This document shows, piece by piece, positions 694 to 32,161 of a DNA stretch of 33,753 bases. The position numbers and the translations under genes are program-made. The notes beneath the pieces were generated by a model. It made no database searches. It had not been told where the DNA came from and saw only the letters and a list, made by a program, of their open reading frames with translations. The DNA lies in IMG/VR virus record IMGVR_UViG_3300047297_000133, positions 1-33,753 of that record; one strand, written 5' to 3'. Source of the stretch: a virus. Every line of letters starts with the position of its first letter. Position 1 is the stretch's first letter.

Positions 694-940
694 GCGGCTT
701 CAGCGTGAGACAAAAATGAAGTGGTCAATTCATGAAGACACGAAGGAGCCATTTGCTAACGGCGATAACTATTTTTACTGGGTTGAGCCGTTCAACGACG
801 GGTACAAATTGCAGTGGGCAAATATGTTCGTCGCTCGCTCACCTGAACGCGTCATGAGTTTTGAAGAGCTTGTTTTAAAAATTAATCGGCTTGAGGGGTT
901 TATTGTGAATTCTTCGTGTGATGAATGTACGCCGAGCTAA
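686..940 (+). CDS. Hypothetical 84-aa protein
   Basis: A soluble, aromatic-rich protein with no signal peptide and a Cys pair near the end (SSCDEC). The ATG at 686 has AGG four bases upstream; an internal ATG at 716 is an alternative. The last codons and the stop lie inside the first attC-like site: the stop TAA at 938-940 is in the inner stem arm. This suggests the 3' end was formed by, or has co-evolved with, cassette insertion. No known family. Confidence 0.6.
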   Translation: MIERLQRETKMKWSIHEDTKEPFANGDNYFYWVEPFNDGYKLQWANMFVARSPERVMSFEELVLKINRLEGFIVNSSCDECTPS

Positions 941-1009
941 AGCGCGGCTGACTGAGCCTGATTTAAAACTACGACTTAAATTCCGTCGCTTTTGAGCGAC
1001 TTGTTACAT
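925..1009 (-). other. attC-like recombination site A
   Basis: On the minus strand: R'' ATGTAAC (1009-1003), 5-nt spacer, L'' GCTCAAAAGCGACGG (997-983), variable terminal loop, L' (948-936), 5-nt spacer, and R' GTACAT (930-925), which lacks one T of GTTACAT. The arms pair except for extra C/A and A bases in L'', the extrahelical-base arrangement of integron attC sites. The L'-to-R' part reads TTTAGCTCGGCGTACAT, close to the familiar attC ending. The deletion in R' may reduce recombination. Confidence 0.75.
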
Positions 1010-1037
1010 TTACTTTTAACTGAGGAGCACAAACAAA

Positions 1038-1247
1038 ATGGCAGAAACTAGAGCGTTATGGTCAATAAGCTTGGATTGCACATGCCCAGAATGCGGGCAC
1101 GATTATGACATTCTTGAAGCTGATTCTGATTTTTTTAATACCGATTACAGGATTGAGCCGATTGAGCACAGCACCGAGCGAACAAAAGATTTTGAAACTG
1201 TTTGCCCAGAGTGCGAGCATGAATTCAGAGTTGATTTTGAATATTAA
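1038..1247 (+). CDS. Zinc-ribbon-like 69-aa protein (cassette A)
   Basis: Two cysteine knuckles, CTCPECG at residues 14-20 and CPECEHEF near residue 56, frame an acidic middle, giving a likely four-Cys zinc site typical of small phage zinc ribbons (inference). The start is well supported: GAGGAG lies ten bases before the ATG. The gene fills the interval between attC-like site A and the half site at 1256, so it is the ORF of one cassette. It is encoded opposite to the cassette's attC direction. Small acidic zinc ribbons can bind nucleic acid or host proteins, but no partner is visible. Confidence 0.7.
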   Translation: MAETRALWSISLDCTCPECGHDYDILEADSDFFNTDYRIEPIEHSTERTKDFETVCPECEHEFRVDFEY

Positions 1248-1255
1248 GCGAGTGA

Positions 1256-1284
1256 ATGTAACGCCAAGCTCAACAGGTTTGGCG
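1256..1284 (-). other. Degenerate attC half site B
   Basis: ATGTAAC (1256-1262) followed by GCCAAGCTCAAC is the same R'-plus-L' half (GTTGAGCTTGGCGTTACAT on the minus strand) seen in the full sites, but no matching R''-L'' half follows. Instead CGCCAA (1262-1267) can pair with TTGGCG (1279-1284), and a new ORF starts at 1302. It is probably a site that lost its distal half and fused with the neighbouring cassette. Confidence 0.6.
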
Positions 1285-1301
1285 ATCCTACAAGGGCGGT
1301 A

Positions 1302-1451
1302 ATGATTACTAGCTATGGGTTTGATGGTGACAGGTATCCAATTCTTGAGGCTAGGTCAGAATGGGACGTAACGCATGAGTACAGGGTGACAGCAAAAAGG
1401 GAAAACGAAACGCACAAGTATTGGCTGTGTGTTGCAAAGTACGATGGTTGA
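1302..1451 (+). CDS. Hypothetical 49-aa protein (cassette B)
   Basis: A complete short ORF beginning MITSYGFDGDRYPILEA, with AGGGCGG a few bases before the ATG, and ending in TGA immediately before the outer box of site C. The peptide is mixed alpha/beta in character, with several aromatic residues and no membrane segment or cysteine motif. No family recognised. It is supported by its exact fit between two cassette sites and by its ribosome-binding site. Confidence 0.5.
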   Translation: MITSYGFDGDRYPILEARSEWDVTHEYRVTAKRENETHKYWLCVAKYDG

Positions 1452-1452
1452 A

Positions 1453-1540
1453 ACACATAACGCTTAGCTCAAAAGTGCGCTGGGAGTAGTCATTAAAACG
1501 CGGATTTATGCCGCATCTTTTGGAGCGTATTGTTATGTGT
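1453..1540 (-). other. attC-like recombination site C (best preserved)
   Basis: The outer boxes ACACATAAC (1453-1461) and GTTATGTGT (1532-1540) are a perfect 9-bp inverted pair. Inside are unpaired 5-nt spacers (GCTTA, 1462-1466; GTATT, 1527-1531), then arms GCTCAAAAGTGCGC (1467-1480) and CCGCATCTTTTGGAGC (1511-1526), which pair with single extra bases (C and A on the minus strand). A 30-nt terminal segment follows. R box, central spacer, L box and extrahelical bases are the hallmarks of a folded attC. The minus-strand R'' side begins CATAACAATACGCTC, like classical sites. Confidence 0.8.
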
Positions 1541-1717
1541 GATGCTGATGAAGAAAAGGAAGCAGAGGAATTTTATACAGATTGCATTGGGGTTGATAAC
1601 AAAAAACACATTTGCAAGCCTCACGAAAAAGAAACCCTGTGTGGTATTGCGATAAAAAGGAAAACATTGTTAAAAAATGACTATAATTTGTTTAGTTGTT
1701 ATGAGTGTACGTACTAA
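1535..1717 (+). CDS. Cys-rich hypothetical 60-aa protein (cassette C)
   Basis: An acidic N-terminal third is followed by a basic segment and a final CYEC pair; cysteines are also near residues 2, 17, 27 and 36, compatible with metal binding. The frame extends upstream to 1508, but the ATG at 1535 lies inside the outer box of site C (GTTATGTGT), so the recombination site itself supplies the start codon; TGGAG at 1521-1525 precedes it by nine bases. The stop is followed at once by site D. This one-ORF, wall-to-wall fit is typical of a cassette. Function unknown. Confidence 0.6.
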   Translation: MCDADEEKEAEEFYTDCIGVDNKKHICKPHEKETLCGIAIKRKTLLKNDYNLFSCYECTY

Positions 1718-1803
1718 CACATAACGCCGAGTTAAAGCGCGGCATGAAGATACCAGAACATAAAACAAATTTACGAACCGTCGCTTTGAGTGACTGGTTA
1801 CAT
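1718..1803 (-). other. attC-like recombination site D
   Basis: On the minus strand: R'' ATGTAAC (1803-1797), 5-nt spacer, L'' ACTCAAAGCGACGG (1791-1778), 34-nt loop, L' (1743-1731), 5-nt spacer GCCGA region (1730-1726), and R' GTTATGT (1725-1719). The extra C and A of L'' fall at the same places as in sites A and C. The R' end reads CTTTAACTCGGCGTTATGT, very close to the classical attC ending. It begins directly after the stop codon of the cassette C ORF. Confidence 0.75.
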
Positions 1804-1821
1804 TTACCGATGGAGGTTTCA

Positions 1822-2034
1822 ATGTTTAACAATAGTGATGAGGTTTTTAATAAACCGCTAAATGTGTATGGAAAGGCTGAAACTGCGGAAAGATTAAAGA
1901 ATGAGGCTTTTGCAGCTTTACGCGAGGCAGAAGCGAAAATGTATTCTTTTGCTGCATTCTTGGACGTTGGCGATGAGCGAACAAAGGCTTTTGAGGTATT
2001 TGAAAATATTAGAAATGCTGCCCGTGTTGGGTGA
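1822..2034 (+). CDS. Helical hypothetical 70-aa protein (cassette D)
   Basis: The frame is open from 1705, but the ATG at 1822 has a strong GGAGG five bases upstream, and the longer version would run through attC-like site D. The protein is largely alpha-helical by composition (residues 18-45 rich in Ala, Glu, Lys; then a second amphipathic stretch). No cysteines, no membrane segment, no recognised family. The stop TGA directly abuts the lone outer box ATGTAAC at 2035-2041, which marks the start of cassette D. Confidence 0.65.
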   Translation: MFNNSDEVFNKPLNVYGKAETAERLKNEAFAALREAEAKMYSFAAFLDVGDERTKAFEVFENIRNAARVG

Positions 2035-2077
2035 ATGTAACATTTGCATCTAAGTCGCCGAGGCCGTTATCTCGGTG
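2035..2077. other. Lone cassette-end box and hairpin
   Basis: ATGTAAC (2035-2041) is the outer box expected at the upstream end of cassette D. It is followed not by an attC arm but by a separate hairpin, CGCCGAG (2056-2062) with CTCGGTG (2071-2077), seven pairs including one G-T, loop of eight. No T-run follows, so it is not a normal terminator. It may be the remnant of another site or an RNA processing/stability element. Confidence 0.4.
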
Positions 2078-2120
2078 ATATTTGCGTAAACAATCTATTT
2101 TTATTTTAAGTGGTGGAGTG

Positions 2121-2303
2121 ATGCCGATCAAATGCGTGCCGACAAAGTTTGAGGCTTATGACGATACAAATGATTTAATTTTCACTATTGAATTATTTGA
2201 CGAAGCGTCTGCCTCAGTGAAAATACTTTCTATTGTGAATTATGAGAGTTTTTGTGAAATCAGCGATGAGATTAAGCAAGCATTGCTATTGATGAAATTA
2301 TGA
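2121..2303 (+). CDS. Hypothetical 60-aa protein
   Basis: A soluble acidic protein beginning MPIKCVPTKFEAYDD. The frame is open from a TTG at 2082, but GGTGGAG just before the GTGATG at 2118-2123 favours the start at 2121 (GTG at 2118 is possible). The pattern of alternating hydrophobic and polar residues in the first half suggests a small beta-rich fold, with a helical C-terminus. No family recognised. It lies just outside the cassette array. Confidence 0.5.
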   Translation: MPIKCVPTKFEAYDDTNDLIFTIELFDEASASVKILSIVNYESFCEISDEIKQALLLMKL

Positions 2304-2316
2304 GAATAGTGGCGCC

Positions 2317-2454
2317 ATGAACTTCAGAAAAAAACAAAGTATTCGATACGAAAAAAGATTTAATGTGTATAAAATTCATTTTTACACGCACGAAGAAATT
2401 AAGAATGCTAAAAAGAAAGCTCAAGAATATTGTGACTTTTTCAATATAAAATAA
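2317..2454 (+). CDS. Hypothetical basic 45-aa protein
   Basis: A short, strongly basic peptide (MNFRKKQSIRYEKRF at its start) with a second Lys-rich helix near residues 27-37. It fits the interval between two genes with only 13 bases on each side. No clear Shine-Dalgarno sequence, so the start is uncertain. Such small basic proteins in early phage operons often bind nucleic acid or host enzymes, but nothing here proves that. Confidence 0.45.
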   Translation: MNFRKKQSIRYEKRFNVYKIHFYTHEEIKNAKKKAQEYCDFFNIK

Positions 2455-2467
2455 GGTGTATTTGTAG

Positions 2468-2713
2468 ATGAACCAATCAAAACTAGAATCACTAGCTGAA
2501 AGTATTATTAATGTGCTTATCGGCTACGGCGTAGCACTTGCAAGCCAGCTTTTAATATTCCCAATGTGCGGCATATTTATTTCATTAACGACAAACTTAT
2601 GGATAGGGGCGTGGTTTACGGCTATCTCATTAGTGCGTAGTTATGTTATCCGTAGGTGGTTTAATGCTGGTATACATAAAGCGGTTATTTCGTTTGTTGG
2701 TATATTAAAATGA
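2468..2713 (+). CDS. Membrane protein, DUF7220-like
   Basis: An 81-aa protein with the ordered pattern ESIINVLIGYGVA, SQ, FP, GI, NLWIGAWFTAISL and RSYVIRR, which I associate with the phage and prophage DUF7220 family (from memory, not searched). Two membrane segments are visible, about residues 13-35 and 42-58, with a positively charged end. AAGG lies about eleven bases before the ATG. The stop overlaps the next start (ATGA). Function unknown; the family is found in accessory regions of many phages. Confidence 0.65.
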   Translation: MNQSKLESLAESIINVLIGYGVALASQLLIFPMCGIFISLTTNLWIGAWFTAISLVRSYVIRRWFNAGIHKAVISFVGILK

Positions 2714-2931
2714 GCATGATAATTAATGTTGAGTTTGTAGCGGGAACCGATATTAATTCGGCTGTTTCTCAGGCAAAACAAAAGGCATCACAATGGGGAG
2801 TTAGCTATGTTTGTTTTAATTTCAATGGAATTAGTTTTTCAATAGGATGCAGTGCCGATATTGAATCTGTAATTAATCAATATACTAGACATAATAAAGA
2901 TGAAATTAAATATGGAATTGTATCCAAGTAG
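2710..2931 (+). CDS. Hypothetical 73-aa protein
   Basis: Starts in an ATGA overlap with the DUF7220-like gene; a second ATG two codons on (2716) is an alternative. The protein has a beta-strand-like N-terminus (INVEFVAG), a helix with AVSQAKQKASQWG, then strands containing two cysteines, a layout like a small alpha/beta domain. No known family. The tight overlap suggests coupled expression with the membrane protein upstream. Confidence 0.55.
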   Translation: MSMIINVEFVAGTDINSAVSQAKQKASQWGVSYVCFNFNGISFSIGCSADIESVINQYTRHNKDEIKYGIVSK

Positions 2932-2959
2932 AAATAACCAATAAACTAAAGAGGCATAT

Positions 2960-3136
2960 ATGGGATTAGAGCTTTTGTACCAATTAAATTATGTGCTTGC
3001 TGTAATTTATATTTTTAAATGCCTTACAGTTGGCAGTGATTTTAGTTTTTACTACTGGCTAACTCGTGGATCAGAATACAACGAGTGGTATTTTAAAAGA
3101 GAGAAGTTTTCTGATTTTGAACGTAATAGGAGTTAG
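2960..3136 (+). CDS. Small hydrophobic-start protein, 58 aa
   Basis: A complete ORF with GAGG five bases before its ATG and its TAG two bases before the next gene. Residues 3-22 are hydrophobic and could be one membrane helix. The rest is aromatic and charged (YYWLTRGSEYNEWYF), ending in a basic and polar tail. No family recognised. One-helix membrane peptides with this topology are common in phage early regions. Confidence 0.6.
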   Translation: MGLELLYQLNYVLAVIYIFKCLTVGSDFSFYYWLTRGSEYNEWYFKREKFSDFERNRS

Positions 3137-3138
3137 AT

Positions 3139-3363
3139 ATGAGTTTTACACATTCGCAAACCGTACCAAGAAACAAGATTGATGACAAATATGACGAACT
3201 ACTTTTGCAGAGAAATGAAGCAACTCGACATGCTGCAATAATAGCGAATGTTTTTTTAGATTTGCATAATGAATATGGTGAAGTACCAGAAATTAATGCA
3301 GCTTATAAAAAAGTTAAAATCCTAATTTCAGAATATGCAGGGCTTGAAATGGTGGGATTATAA
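3139..3363 (+). CDS. Hypothetical 74-aa helical protein
   Basis: AGGAG lies six bases before the ATG, inside the end of the preceding gene. The protein is mostly helical, polar at the start, with a central segment RHAAIIANVFLDLHNEYG. It ends in a TAATG overlap with the next gene. No cysteine or catalytic motif and no recognised family. Confidence 0.6.
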   Translation: MSFTHSQTVPRNKIDDKYDELLLQRNEATRHAAIIANVFLDLHNEYGEVPEINAAYKKVKILISEYAGLEMVGL

Positions 3364-3530
3364 TGACCAAAAAAGAACTGATAAAAGCATTAGATAAATA
3401 TGAAGATTATGATGTTGTCGTCTGTATTGGCGGTGATGGCGCATGGGATAATATTGAAAAAGTAGAGGATTTCCGAGATTCAATTGCGATTTGCTTTGGT
3501 GGTGGCTCACCATTTACTGATGAGCAATAA
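3363..3530 (+). CDS. Hypothetical 55-aa protein
   Basis: Starts in a TAATG overlap and runs to TAA at 3528-3530. The sequence has a helix (KKELIKALDKY), a strand (DVVVCIGG) and a second strand (SIAICFGGG), as in small phage proteins often annotated only as hypothetical. It is acidic and soluble. After it comes a 34-base AT-only spacer before the next gene. Confidence 0.6.
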   Translation: MTKKELIKALDKYEDYDVVVCIGGDGAWDNIEKVEDFRDSIAICFGGGSPFTDEQ

Positions 3531-3564
3531 TAAATAATTTAAATTTTTTTTATTTGGGTAAAAA

Positions 3565-3993
3565 ATGGCACGTGATAAAAACAAAATGCTAAAACGCGCA
3601 AGGGCTGGCATTAAGGGCTTAATATTAAGCTGGGTTGATAAAGACCCGCTAAAGGATCAGAGTGAAGTTATACCATGCGGCGTAACCCATAGAAACCCAG
3701 TTTACAAACTAACAGCGGCTAAAATATTTGAAGATTTTGGCGATTTTATTACCAATAAACAACGTTTTCGATGGTTAATAAAAATAGATGTGATTTTCGA
3801 TTATGATAACGGCCAGCGTCAAATTGAAACACGCGAGCTTGAAGCGTTTGCAACAATATCAGAAATGAATGAAGTTGCGCTTGATGAGGTTCGAGACGCA
3901 CAACGGCATGGTGATATTAAAAAATACGTACACACGAAGTTTACTGTTGAGTGTGTGGCATTAAATCCTAAATATGACTTGGTGAAAAAATGA
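3565..3993 (+). CDS. Hypothetical 142-aa phage protein
   Basis: A soluble alpha/beta-type protein. The N-terminus is very basic (ARDKNKMLKRARAG), the middle has several strand-like segments (RWLIKIDVIFDYD), and the C-terminal half is helical and charged. No catalytic motif or cysteine cluster is evident. GGGT lies just before the ATG after an AT-rich spacer. Its stop overlaps the next start (ATGA). The basic N-terminus could bind nucleic acid, but that is only inference. Confidence 0.6.
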   Translation: MARDKNKMLKRARAGIKGLILSWVDKDPLKDQSEVIPCGVTHRNPVYKLTAAKIFEDFGDFITNKQRFRWLIKIDVIFDYDNGQRQIETRELEAFATISEMNEVALDEVRDAQRHGDIKKYVHTKFTVECVALNPKYDLVKK

Positions 3994-4292
3994 AAAAAAC
4001 ACTAGAAAAATGGCAAGACACAATCCTTGATACTAATTTGCAGATTAAAAAGTTGCGCGACTTTTTCGGCTGTACTGAAAACGATTTTATCGACTCAATG
4101 GAACGTTTACAGATGGAGTATACGCGCTCAATTGAAAATCTGATTGGTGATGAGTTCGGAACATTGGATTGGTATTGGCTTGAAAATGAAATGGGAGAAC
4201 GTGGTCATAAGGCTGGCGCAAACGGCAATTTAAAAAACATAAAAAACATAGATGATCTTGTGTGGCTTCTCGAATTAACCGTGGGTGAATGA
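3990..4292 (+). CDS. Hypothetical 100-aa helical protein
   Basis: Almost entirely helical by composition. Residues 1-30 are an amphipathic helix, followed by EYTRSIENLIGDEFG and a Trp-rich segment LDWYWLE near residue 59. It is translationally coupled at both ends (ATGA at 3990; GTGAATGATG at its stop). No family recognised. Confidence 0.6.
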   Translation: MKKTLEKWQDTILDTNLQIKKLRDFFGCTENDFIDSMERLQMEYTRSIENLIGDEFGTLDWYWLENEMGERGHKAGANGNLKNIKNIDDLVWLLELTVGE

Positions 4293-4486
4293 TGACTAGA
4301 AATAACGCGATAAAATTACTTAAAGAAGCTGGGTGGCATAGTGATTTTCAAAAAGAAAAGGTAGTGGCCGACATTGCAGAATTAAATCCTAATAAAGCAC
4401 GCGATTACTTTGATATTGGTGCTAGTAATCGCGTGGATGGAAGGCCGTGCACTTGCGAAAGATGTAATTTAAATACAACTTCTTAG
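4289..4486 (+). CDS. Hypothetical 65-aa protein with C-terminal Cys cluster
   Basis: Begins at ATG 4289 or the adjacent ATG 4292 and ends with CTCERC close to the C-terminus, a possible metal-binding knuckle. It is the last plus-strand gene of the early-type block, and its stop overlaps the stop of the convergent tail gene by a few bases. No intrinsic terminator is visible at this junction, so antisense read-through is possible. Confidence 0.55.
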   Translation: MMTRNNAIKLLKEAGWHSDFQKEKVVADIAELNPNKARDYFDIGASNRVDGRPCTCERCNLNTTS

Positions 4487-30844: not shown

Positions 30845-30985
30845 CTATCCACCACACTCTAGGCACTGAATTAAACCTACCGAGTAATAATAGACTGCGC
30901 CAGTGCCTTGTAATTTGTAGGTGTGCTTGCATTCAGTAGGATTAGTTTCTATGCTGAATGATTTAACTTTGCTGATTAGCTTCAT
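30845..30985 (-). CDS. Small Cys/His protein after ninG
   Basis: 46 aa (starts MKLISKVKSF) with C-x-H (TECKH) near residue 19 and C-x2-C at the end (CLECGG), a possible zinc site. AGGA lies six bases before the ATG, inside the end of ninG, which it overlaps by 23 bases in another frame. No family recognised. Confidence 0.6.
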   Translation of the reverse strand: MKLISKVKSFSIETNPTECKHTYKLQGTGAVYYYSVGLIQCLECGG

Positions 30986-31544
30986 TCAATTCCTTCAACT
31001 TCTTTGTGTATAGCGCATAAACATTTTTGTAGTCATCAAGTCGATAATTTGGCATTTCGTGTACACCTTCCAGCCATAAAACCTTTTCTTGTCCGTAAAT
31101 CTCAACTAATGCTGACCTGTACGCAATCAAATTACCACTTAGATGCACGTTGCAATAGCTTGAACATTGCTTGTGGCAATTAAACTCATTAAATCGCAAT
31201 GCAGAACTTCGTCCAACCGGTACATAATGGCCTGCATCATACTTAACCGTTTTTGTTGTCTGACAACTTATGCATGGCTTCATTTCATCACGCTTACGAA
31301 TGTACTCGTTAAATTTCTGTTGAGCTTTCTTCATCCAGAATGATTTATCTTTGTCGTTAGCTTCTCGCTTCATCTTACGCGTTACTTCGTTGTATTCTTT
31401 GATTGCTTTGGTCTTCCTAACCTTTACCACTGCCTTACCATAATCTAAAGCGCATGCCATGCCACAGACCAAAATCAGACTGTTAGCTGGTTTAAACAGC
31501 TCTTTGCATGACTTGCAGCGCTTTTGCTTGATGGGTTTAATCAT
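30963..31544 (-). CDS. ninG: NinG-like recombination endonuclease
   Basis: 193 aa. N-terminal zinc site C10-x2-C13 and C27-x3-C31, a basic helical linker (KKAQQKFNEYIRKRD), then CISC (91-94) and an HNH-like part with DAGHYVPVGRSSALRF, CHKQC and LSGN. This is the typical layout of phage NinG/Rap, which processes Holliday-type junctions. AGGA precedes the ATG. It is in the expected place, after NinB. Confidence 0.85.
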   Translation of the reverse strand: MIKPIKQKRCKSCKELFKPANSLILVCGMACALDYGKAVVKVRKTKAIKEYNEVTRKMKREANDKDKSFWMKKAQQKFNEYIRKRDEMKPCISCQTTKTVKYDAGHYVPVGRSSALRFNEFNCHKQCSSYCNVHLSGNLIAYRSALVEIYGQEKVLWLEGVHEMPNYRLDDYKNVYALYTKKLKELNEANQQS

Positions 31545-31558
31545 TACTTATCCTATTA

Positions 31559-31705
31559 TTAATCAATAAACTGCTCACACTGATACACTGGAATAAATAT
31601 AAACCAATACGTAACCACTCTATATAATGCGTTCTCTTTGTAGTTTTCATTCTTTCCCCTAAATATCTTTTTTACTTTTGTTTTAATTGTTTTTCTGATT
31701 ATCAT
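31559..31705 (-). CDS. Small basic/hydrophobic protein between ninB and ninG
   Basis: 48 aa: residues 1-22 strongly basic (IIRKTIKTKVKKIFRGK), then an aromatic and hydrophobic segment (VVTYWFIFIPVY). GGTGA lies about six bases before the ATG, just after the ninB stop. It fills the only gap between ninB and ninG. No family recognised. Confidence 0.55.
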   Translation of the reverse strand: MIIRKTIKTKVKKIFRGKNENYKENALYRVVTYWFIFIPVYQCEQFID

Positions 31706-31714
31706 ATCTTCACC

Positions 31715-32161
31715 CTATTGTTGTGCTTGTTTGTATGATTCATATTCTTTAAGTGCTTTCTCGCTCCAAGGTACGCCATGCAATGAGCCGAATGCGTATG
31801 TAATCTCGATCAACTCGCTAAACTCTCGCACTTTCATCTCGCTAGTGCTGCGCCCAAATACAAAAAATCCATTGCCGTTTGCGTTAGGTACTATTTCAGA
31901 CTCGCCCATCTCGCTGCTTAGAAATTCTTTCCAGAATCTTGGACACCGCTTTTTTCCATACCACTCTAAGTGCAAACTAATATCCGTCCACAATGGCCAG
32001 CCTTTTTTATTCTGCGCAATAGTTCGCTTTTCTTCGTAGCGTTCAATAGTTATCTGTACCGCACCACCTTCTAGCCCTTTGTTTACAAGGTTAAATACCC
32101 ATTCTAAAATGGATTTAAGTTGAATTGTTCCGTCGATTATCTTTATATGTTGATTTGCCAT
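31715..32161 (-). CDS. ninB: NinB-like recombination protein
   Basis: 148 aa with the NinB pattern: ITIERYEEKRTIAQNKKGW, then LHLEWYGKKRCPRFWKEFL, then STSEMKVREFSELIEITYAFG. NinB is a ssDNA-binding recombination mediator of the lambda nin region. The ribosome site is weak (AAGG at 12 bases), and an AT-only stretch lies upstream. Normal length for the family. Confidence 0.85.
   Translation of the reverse strand: MANQHIKIIDGTIQLKSILEWVFNLVNKGLEGGAVQITIERYEEKRTIAQNKKGWPLWTDISLHLEWYGKKRCPRFWKEFLSSEMGESEIVPNANGNGFFVFGRSTSEMKVREFSELIEITYAFGSLHGVPWSEKALKEYESYKQAQQ

Follow-up and report, generated by a model that had tools for sequence, protein, structure and literature searches.

An integrase-less attC array in a tailed phage, with inverted cassettes that are probably mobilised by a host integron integrase

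Why would a phage with no integrase in sight carry a row of integron-type attC sites between its small genes? The window analysed here is the entire IMG/VR virus record, a linear stretch of 33,753 bases. PHROG matches show that it encodes a large terminase, a portal, a head protein, NinG and NinB, and it is therefore a tailed phage. The left end of the window carries the array, on the plus strand, and the structural block lies on the minus strand. Small plus-strand ORFs of unknown function follow the array on its 3' side (2082-4486), and attC sites are absent among them. A tRNA search found none, and a DNA search of the array region among phages returned short chance matches only. The NinG and NinB proteins (30966-32161) are 81% identical to those of another phage (G007; L144 5772-6772), which has an intact two-site array with an attI-like end nearby.

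In a loose scan for complementarity, sites in the window were indistinguishable from shuffled sequences, and covariance models were therefore used, for which we built our own in place of the published IntegronFinder/HattCI models. We collected attC-like sites from four other viral contigs carrying an exact 22-base attC pattern and from L002, the closest terminase relative with an early region, giving an alignment of 33 related sites, the window's own included. Model R2 was built without any site from the window, L002 or L004, i.e., from the sites of other phages; because it still recovers the three window sites (E 5e-14 to 4e-16), these lie far beyond chance. R2 also detects sites in L002 (five) and L004 (two). 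Across the whole window it reported nothing beyond the three sites, and model R1 with filters off returned the same three. The original prediction had placed attC-like sites at 925-1009, 1453-1540 and 1718-1803 and proposed a covariance search; the search confirmed all three as real, at near-identical coordinates (Table 1).

The secondary structure tells the same story. RNAalifold, run on the 33 sites without structural guidance, returned the attC layout, with an R''/R' stem, 5-nt spacers on both sides, an L''/L' stem and one unpaired extra base. Once a second extra base was added to the structure, 93.2% of cells were paired compared with 71.8% in shuffles, covariation reached 0.520 against 0.142, and double changes numbered 105 against 37, a pairing signal that was lost when the alignment was slid by one column. 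The covarying L''/L' stem, the unpaired 5-nt spacers and the extrahelical bases are those of attC, and the boxes and matching extra bases reported from the first reading of the sequence are borne out. The AAC/GTT core of the R''/R' boxes is intact in sites 2 and 3.

Table 1 Features of the array in the window (positions of the window; R1 and R2 are covariance models).
Feature	Position	Strand	Details
attC site 1	925..1009	+	R2 65.8 bits, E 5e-14; R1 69.0 bits
Cassette A	1004..1261	+	ORF 1038-1247, 69 aa, four-cysteine zinc-ribbon-like; start TTACAT, end ATGTAA
Decayed attC	1256..1308	+	R'' ATGTAAC and part of L'' left, R' unrecognisable; sequence inspection
Cassette B ORF	1302..1451	+	49 aa; open frame from decayed site to attC site 2
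attC site 2	1455..1538	+	R'' ACATAAC, R' GTTATGT; R2 66.7 bits, E 3e-14
Cassette C	1533..1724	+	ORF best start 1535, end 1717; start TTATGT, end ACATAA
attC site 3	1719..1803	+	R'' ACATAAC, R' GTTACAT; R2 74.1 bits, E 4e-16
Cassette D	1798..2040	+	ORF 1822-2034, 70 aa; start TTACAT, end ATGTAA
Final R'' box	2035..2041	+	ATGTAAC; stem gone, R'' only

The array nevertheless looks degenerate and partly worn, and here the first description required correction. Site 1, whose polarity is that of the bottom strand relative to the ORFs, lacks one base of its R'' box (ATGT-AC; R' GTTACAT), and an ORF at 686-940 runs into it. Two further sites, near 1256 and at 2035, have decayed to remnants; the former was missed by R1 even with filters off. 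Downstream of the R'' box at 2035 stands ATTTGCATC, as opposed to the usual AG-starting attI-like end seen elsewhere. With this end unclear and three sites damaged, the window array may have lost its mobility. A CALIN is defined by two or more attC sites lying within a few kb where no integron integrase is present; the window has three within 879 bp, and the integron integrase profile TIGR02249 finds no match. It is not a complete integron with intI and attI in cis, since intI is absent and the attI-like end unclear.

Each attC site is accompanied by a single ORF, with unit boundaries at G↓TT, as in canonical cassettes. The hexamer that opens a unit, directly behind the G of GTT, and the unit's own R'' box are reverse complements. 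The start/R'' pairs of the window are 1533/1719, 1798/2035 and 1004/1256, the last of these if the decayed site is counted as the end of cassette A. This match is found in 102 of 115 cassettes, where shuffling predicts 19, and in 133 of 148 internal genes of a larger set. The separate single-ORF units of the original prediction are thereby upheld, and cassette ends in related phages are conserved at its predicted cut points. A typical phage cassette measures ~320 bp, made up of a gene of ~260 bp and its attC.

Three of the four window cassette proteins match uncharacterised phage families, which are present in enterobacterial, Aeromonas and other phages, and the closest homologues of the window cassette genes are genes of other phages. 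The cassette A ORF matches phrog_4173 (E 1.9e-13), with homologues in 48 enterobacterial and Vibrio phages; cassette C matches phrog_21598 (E 1e-15), with relatives in Aeromonas phages; the cassette D protein matches phrog_4220; and the PHROG search with the cassette B ORF gave no match. The leader of cassette D, GATGGAGGTTTCAATG, also opens cassettes in G011, in G019 and in the P2-like prophage described below. Across the pool, cassette proteins resemble RNA ligase, Lar-like restriction alleviation, repressor-like HTH and PAPS-reductase-like proteins. Small CPxCG zinc-ribbon proteins are encoded by cassettes of G010, G012 and G019; one of those in G010 matches a Lar-like restriction alleviation family (phrog_599), and the similar proteins of G012 and G019 may serve in counter-defence.

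Beyond the window, R1 detected 183 sites in 32 IMG/VR contigs of podo- and sipho-like phages, the window among them (24 contigs with 144 sites plus 8 contigs with 39). The contigs were mostly picked by attC pattern scans of viral contigs, so that the presence of sites in most of them is by construction; L002 and L004 were reached independently through their terminase. Six contigs encode terminase, portal or head proteins 51-78% identical to those of the window. Others are different phages by PHROG: G012, G018 and G019 are siphovirus-like with a phrog_145 portal, G008 has a phrog_9 terminase, and G003 and G021 are other podovirus-like phages. The lack of an integrase, already apparent in the window at first reading, extends to this group, with TIGR02249 absent from 24 related phage records and the tyrosine recombinase/phage-integrase domain (PF00589) from 22. 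A 65-kb virus record (G178; L215) has three weaker attC sites, at 35-44 bits, a score similar to that of bacterial chromosomal attC.

Do whole cassettes move between these phages? Between G003 (37.7 kb) and G023 (27.0 kb), one stretch of 459 bp is 97.2% identical and there is one 106-bp attC match; the two otherwise have no DNA-level similarity. Likewise, G173 and G180 (37.0 kb) have 491 bp in common at 95.9% and nothing else, over the 20.0 kb of the 25.3-kb G173 that the comparison covered. Both shared pieces consist of an attC stem and a gene, with identity ending at TAAC on both sides; units bounded in this way by the crossover core at both ends provide direct evidence for site-specific exchange. 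The unit sits last in G003 and G173, beside the conserved attI-like end, and in integrons new cassettes are expected to insert next to attI. Genes also become separated from their stems. In different phages, one and the same cassette gene (85-95% identical) occurs between quite different stems, and among 12 gene pairs at least 85% identical, neither flanking stem is shared in nine, the other three having the upstream stem in common, clearly or in part (0.97, 0.99, 0.79). Plain cassette movement is therefore insufficient, although in the two freshest transfers stem and gene travelled together. An exchanged unit of gene plus downstream attC was considered and dropped, as the downstream stem is not shared.

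The far end of the arrays resembles attI. Twenty arrays end in xxxTAACAG, where xxx matches the start of the last cassette, and most continue CGGAATATACGGC or TTTATTCAA, or close variants. TAACAGTTTATTCAA occurs in 87 copies in 36 of the 144 genomes belonging to the family of MAG G024, as opposed to three for the reversed control; intI is present in 111 of the 144. Eighteen genomes have a copy 247-366 bp upstream of intI, without exception on the same strand, and the adjoining intI was confirmed at 381-419 bits. On the opposite strand TAACAGTTTATTCAA reads ...TTGAATAAACTG↓TTA, which is the attI position. The other 69 copies are scattered away from any listed intI, with 11 across the chromosome of G161 alone, and may be dispersed attI-like sites or CALIN ends. 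A further motif, GGCCGTATATTTCC, occurred within one MAG on the intI contig alone and was set aside as part of a longer attI region.

These genomes also point to a host. In a Cellvibrionaceae MAG, contig JAGKXD010000019.1 carries bacterial genes up to 16.1 kb, then an integrase-like gene, called from its N-terminus and position, and then phage genes. The integrated P2-like prophage (16.4-50.6 kb; L235-L237) has a P2-like terminase and portal, and its array at 23.7-25.0 kb comprises four attC of phage type and the attI-like end TTATAACAGCTAAATATACAGCC. MAG G024 combines one intI with three contigs that look phage-like and bear attC of the phage type; they are grouped by binning, which suggests a link but does not prove it. 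The 144 genomes were assigned to Cellvibrionaceae via one member, G057, which holds JAGKXD010000019.1. Taken together, the prophage, the attI sequence and the co-binned phage contigs suggest that the host family is most likely Cellvibrionaceae, to which the host of the window phage would also belong. Chromosomal attC of this family score at most ~55 bits, below most phage sites. Near-identical cassettes in host chromosomal integrons, which the original prediction led us to look for, were not found; a scan of 84,980 genomes for an exact phage attC 22-mer gave no occurrence, and this search recovered no bacterial integron with these particular cassettes.

The bacterial loci reveal a feature that the original prediction had overlooked. 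On phage contigs, ORFs run parallel to the attC model strand in 140 of 144 intervals, whereas at bacterial loci the genes between attC sites are antiparallel to it in 31 of 36, reading away from attI. Three of the five bacterial exceptions lie in the P2-like prophage, counted as two overlapping loci. The canonical polarity, with the ORF directed away from attI and fixed relative to attC, is thus not that of the phage arrays, and the counts indicate that inversion affects the phage ORFs within cassettes that are otherwise canonical. On the minus strand, the exchanged units show the canonical order of G↓TT, antisense gene and attC. Recombination of the top strand was considered as a reason why the downstream stems are not shared and was dropped, since host integrons show that the phage ORFs, not the sites, are inverted.

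We consider the best explanation, with a probability of about 80%, to be that the phages carry an attI and inverted cassettes as a small integrase-less array (CALIN) mobilised in trans by a host IntI. Whether in infection or in prophage growth, the integrase of the host integron would bind to the hairpins that attC sites form in single-stranded phage DNA and would recombine attC with the attI-like site, if active, or with another attC at G↓TT, such that whole cassettes could move between phages meeting in one cell, possibly to their benefit. The antisense gene reads toward attI in the phage, and its expression would therefore have to come from phage or cassette signals rather than from an integron promoter. 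The original prediction, that the phage gains small genes through the integrase of a host integron, agrees with the core-bounded exchange and the attI-like ends, which make IntI the probable agent. The broader proposition, that unrelated Cellvibrionaceae phages draw on a common pool of inverted cassettes, in arrays closed by a phage-borne attI, and exchange them on co-infection through a borrowed host IntI, is one toward which we lean slightly.

The decay of the window sites is what would be expected if a single past capture from a host integron had left relics, with later variation arising by homologous recombination at attC repeats and no integrase. The repeats do supply short homology, genes and stems have often been re-paired, and phage mosaicism is common. 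However, the stems differ (mean identity ~0.61), leaving few identical bases at a junction, recently shared units end exactly at the core on both sides in contigs that are otherwise unrelated, and start and R'' hexamers remain matched pool-wide, which makes such a history unlikely. The re-pairing could also be read as a sign that each gene is a tiny mobile unit bounded by inverted 7-bp repeats, GTTAxxx...xxxTAAC, and moved by another recombinase, the stems being only landing sites; in most pairs, indeed, the repeat-flanked gene is shared while both stems differ. Against this, the stems bear compensatory changes and extra bases, which are marks of selection by an integrase, the two freshest transfers took the stem along with the gene, and searches of the phage records with TIGR02249 and PF00589 gave no candidate recombinase. 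We regard this as very improbable.

The hairpins stand between co-directional genes, where transcription terminators or operon RNA elements might be expected. As their main role this reading is refuted by the conserved R boxes and unpaired bases, the exchange by cassette, the attI-like ends, the homology to attC beside bacterial intI and an Rfam scan with zero matches; a secondary role is possible.

Our results suggest that phages apparently turn a bacterial gene-capture machine to their own gene exchange; they also predict a host family and offer an integrase amenable to testing. This would explain how small accessory genes, e.g., Lar-like anti-restriction and RNA ligase genes, spread one at a time between unrelated phages. 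The systematic gene inversion departs from the rule by which cassette orientation follows attC polarity and, if the common pool exists, would silence phage cassettes landing in the host's own integron. Class 1 cassettes such as aadA1 have the attC architecture and the G↓TT crossover in common with the phage cassettes, and differ in gene polarity relative to attC, in their resistance cargo and in having an integrase in cis. Cellvibrionaceae chromosomal integrons share with them attC ends of the form TAACGCC..GACTTGTTA and the attI core TAACAGTTTATTCAA (reverse complement); unlike the phage arrays, they possess intI, genes reading away from attI, and larger cassettes and attC.

The original prediction also regarded integron cassettes as rare in phages, a view that does not hold given at least 32 contigs here and the phage CALINs published in 2023, when Qi et al. 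reported 17 among 10,705 phage genomes and showed IntI1 recombination at five of the six phage attC sites that they tested (PMC9892861). The CALINs of the virulent and temperate phages TJE1, PH101 and P12002L resemble ours in combining attC and small cassettes with no integrase (PMC9892861). Tetrasphaera phage TJE1, however, has the canonical gene polarity, opposite to that described here, its attC match, a weak one (E 0.02), lying on the other strand from its genes. Shewanella prophage M16-3 similarly pairs a CALIN with an attI site, but it has intI, is inactive and bears attI at the start of the array (PMC9892861). Compared with these published CALINs, our set comprises unrelated lineages that share cassettes, with the attI-like end on the 3' side. 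The literature searched, with preprints and many subscription papers outside its scope, contained no report of inverted phage cassettes or of Cellvibrionaceae phage cassettes. While phage CALINs were already known, inverted cassettes pooled across several lineages, in arrays that close with an attI-like end, represent a novel variant.
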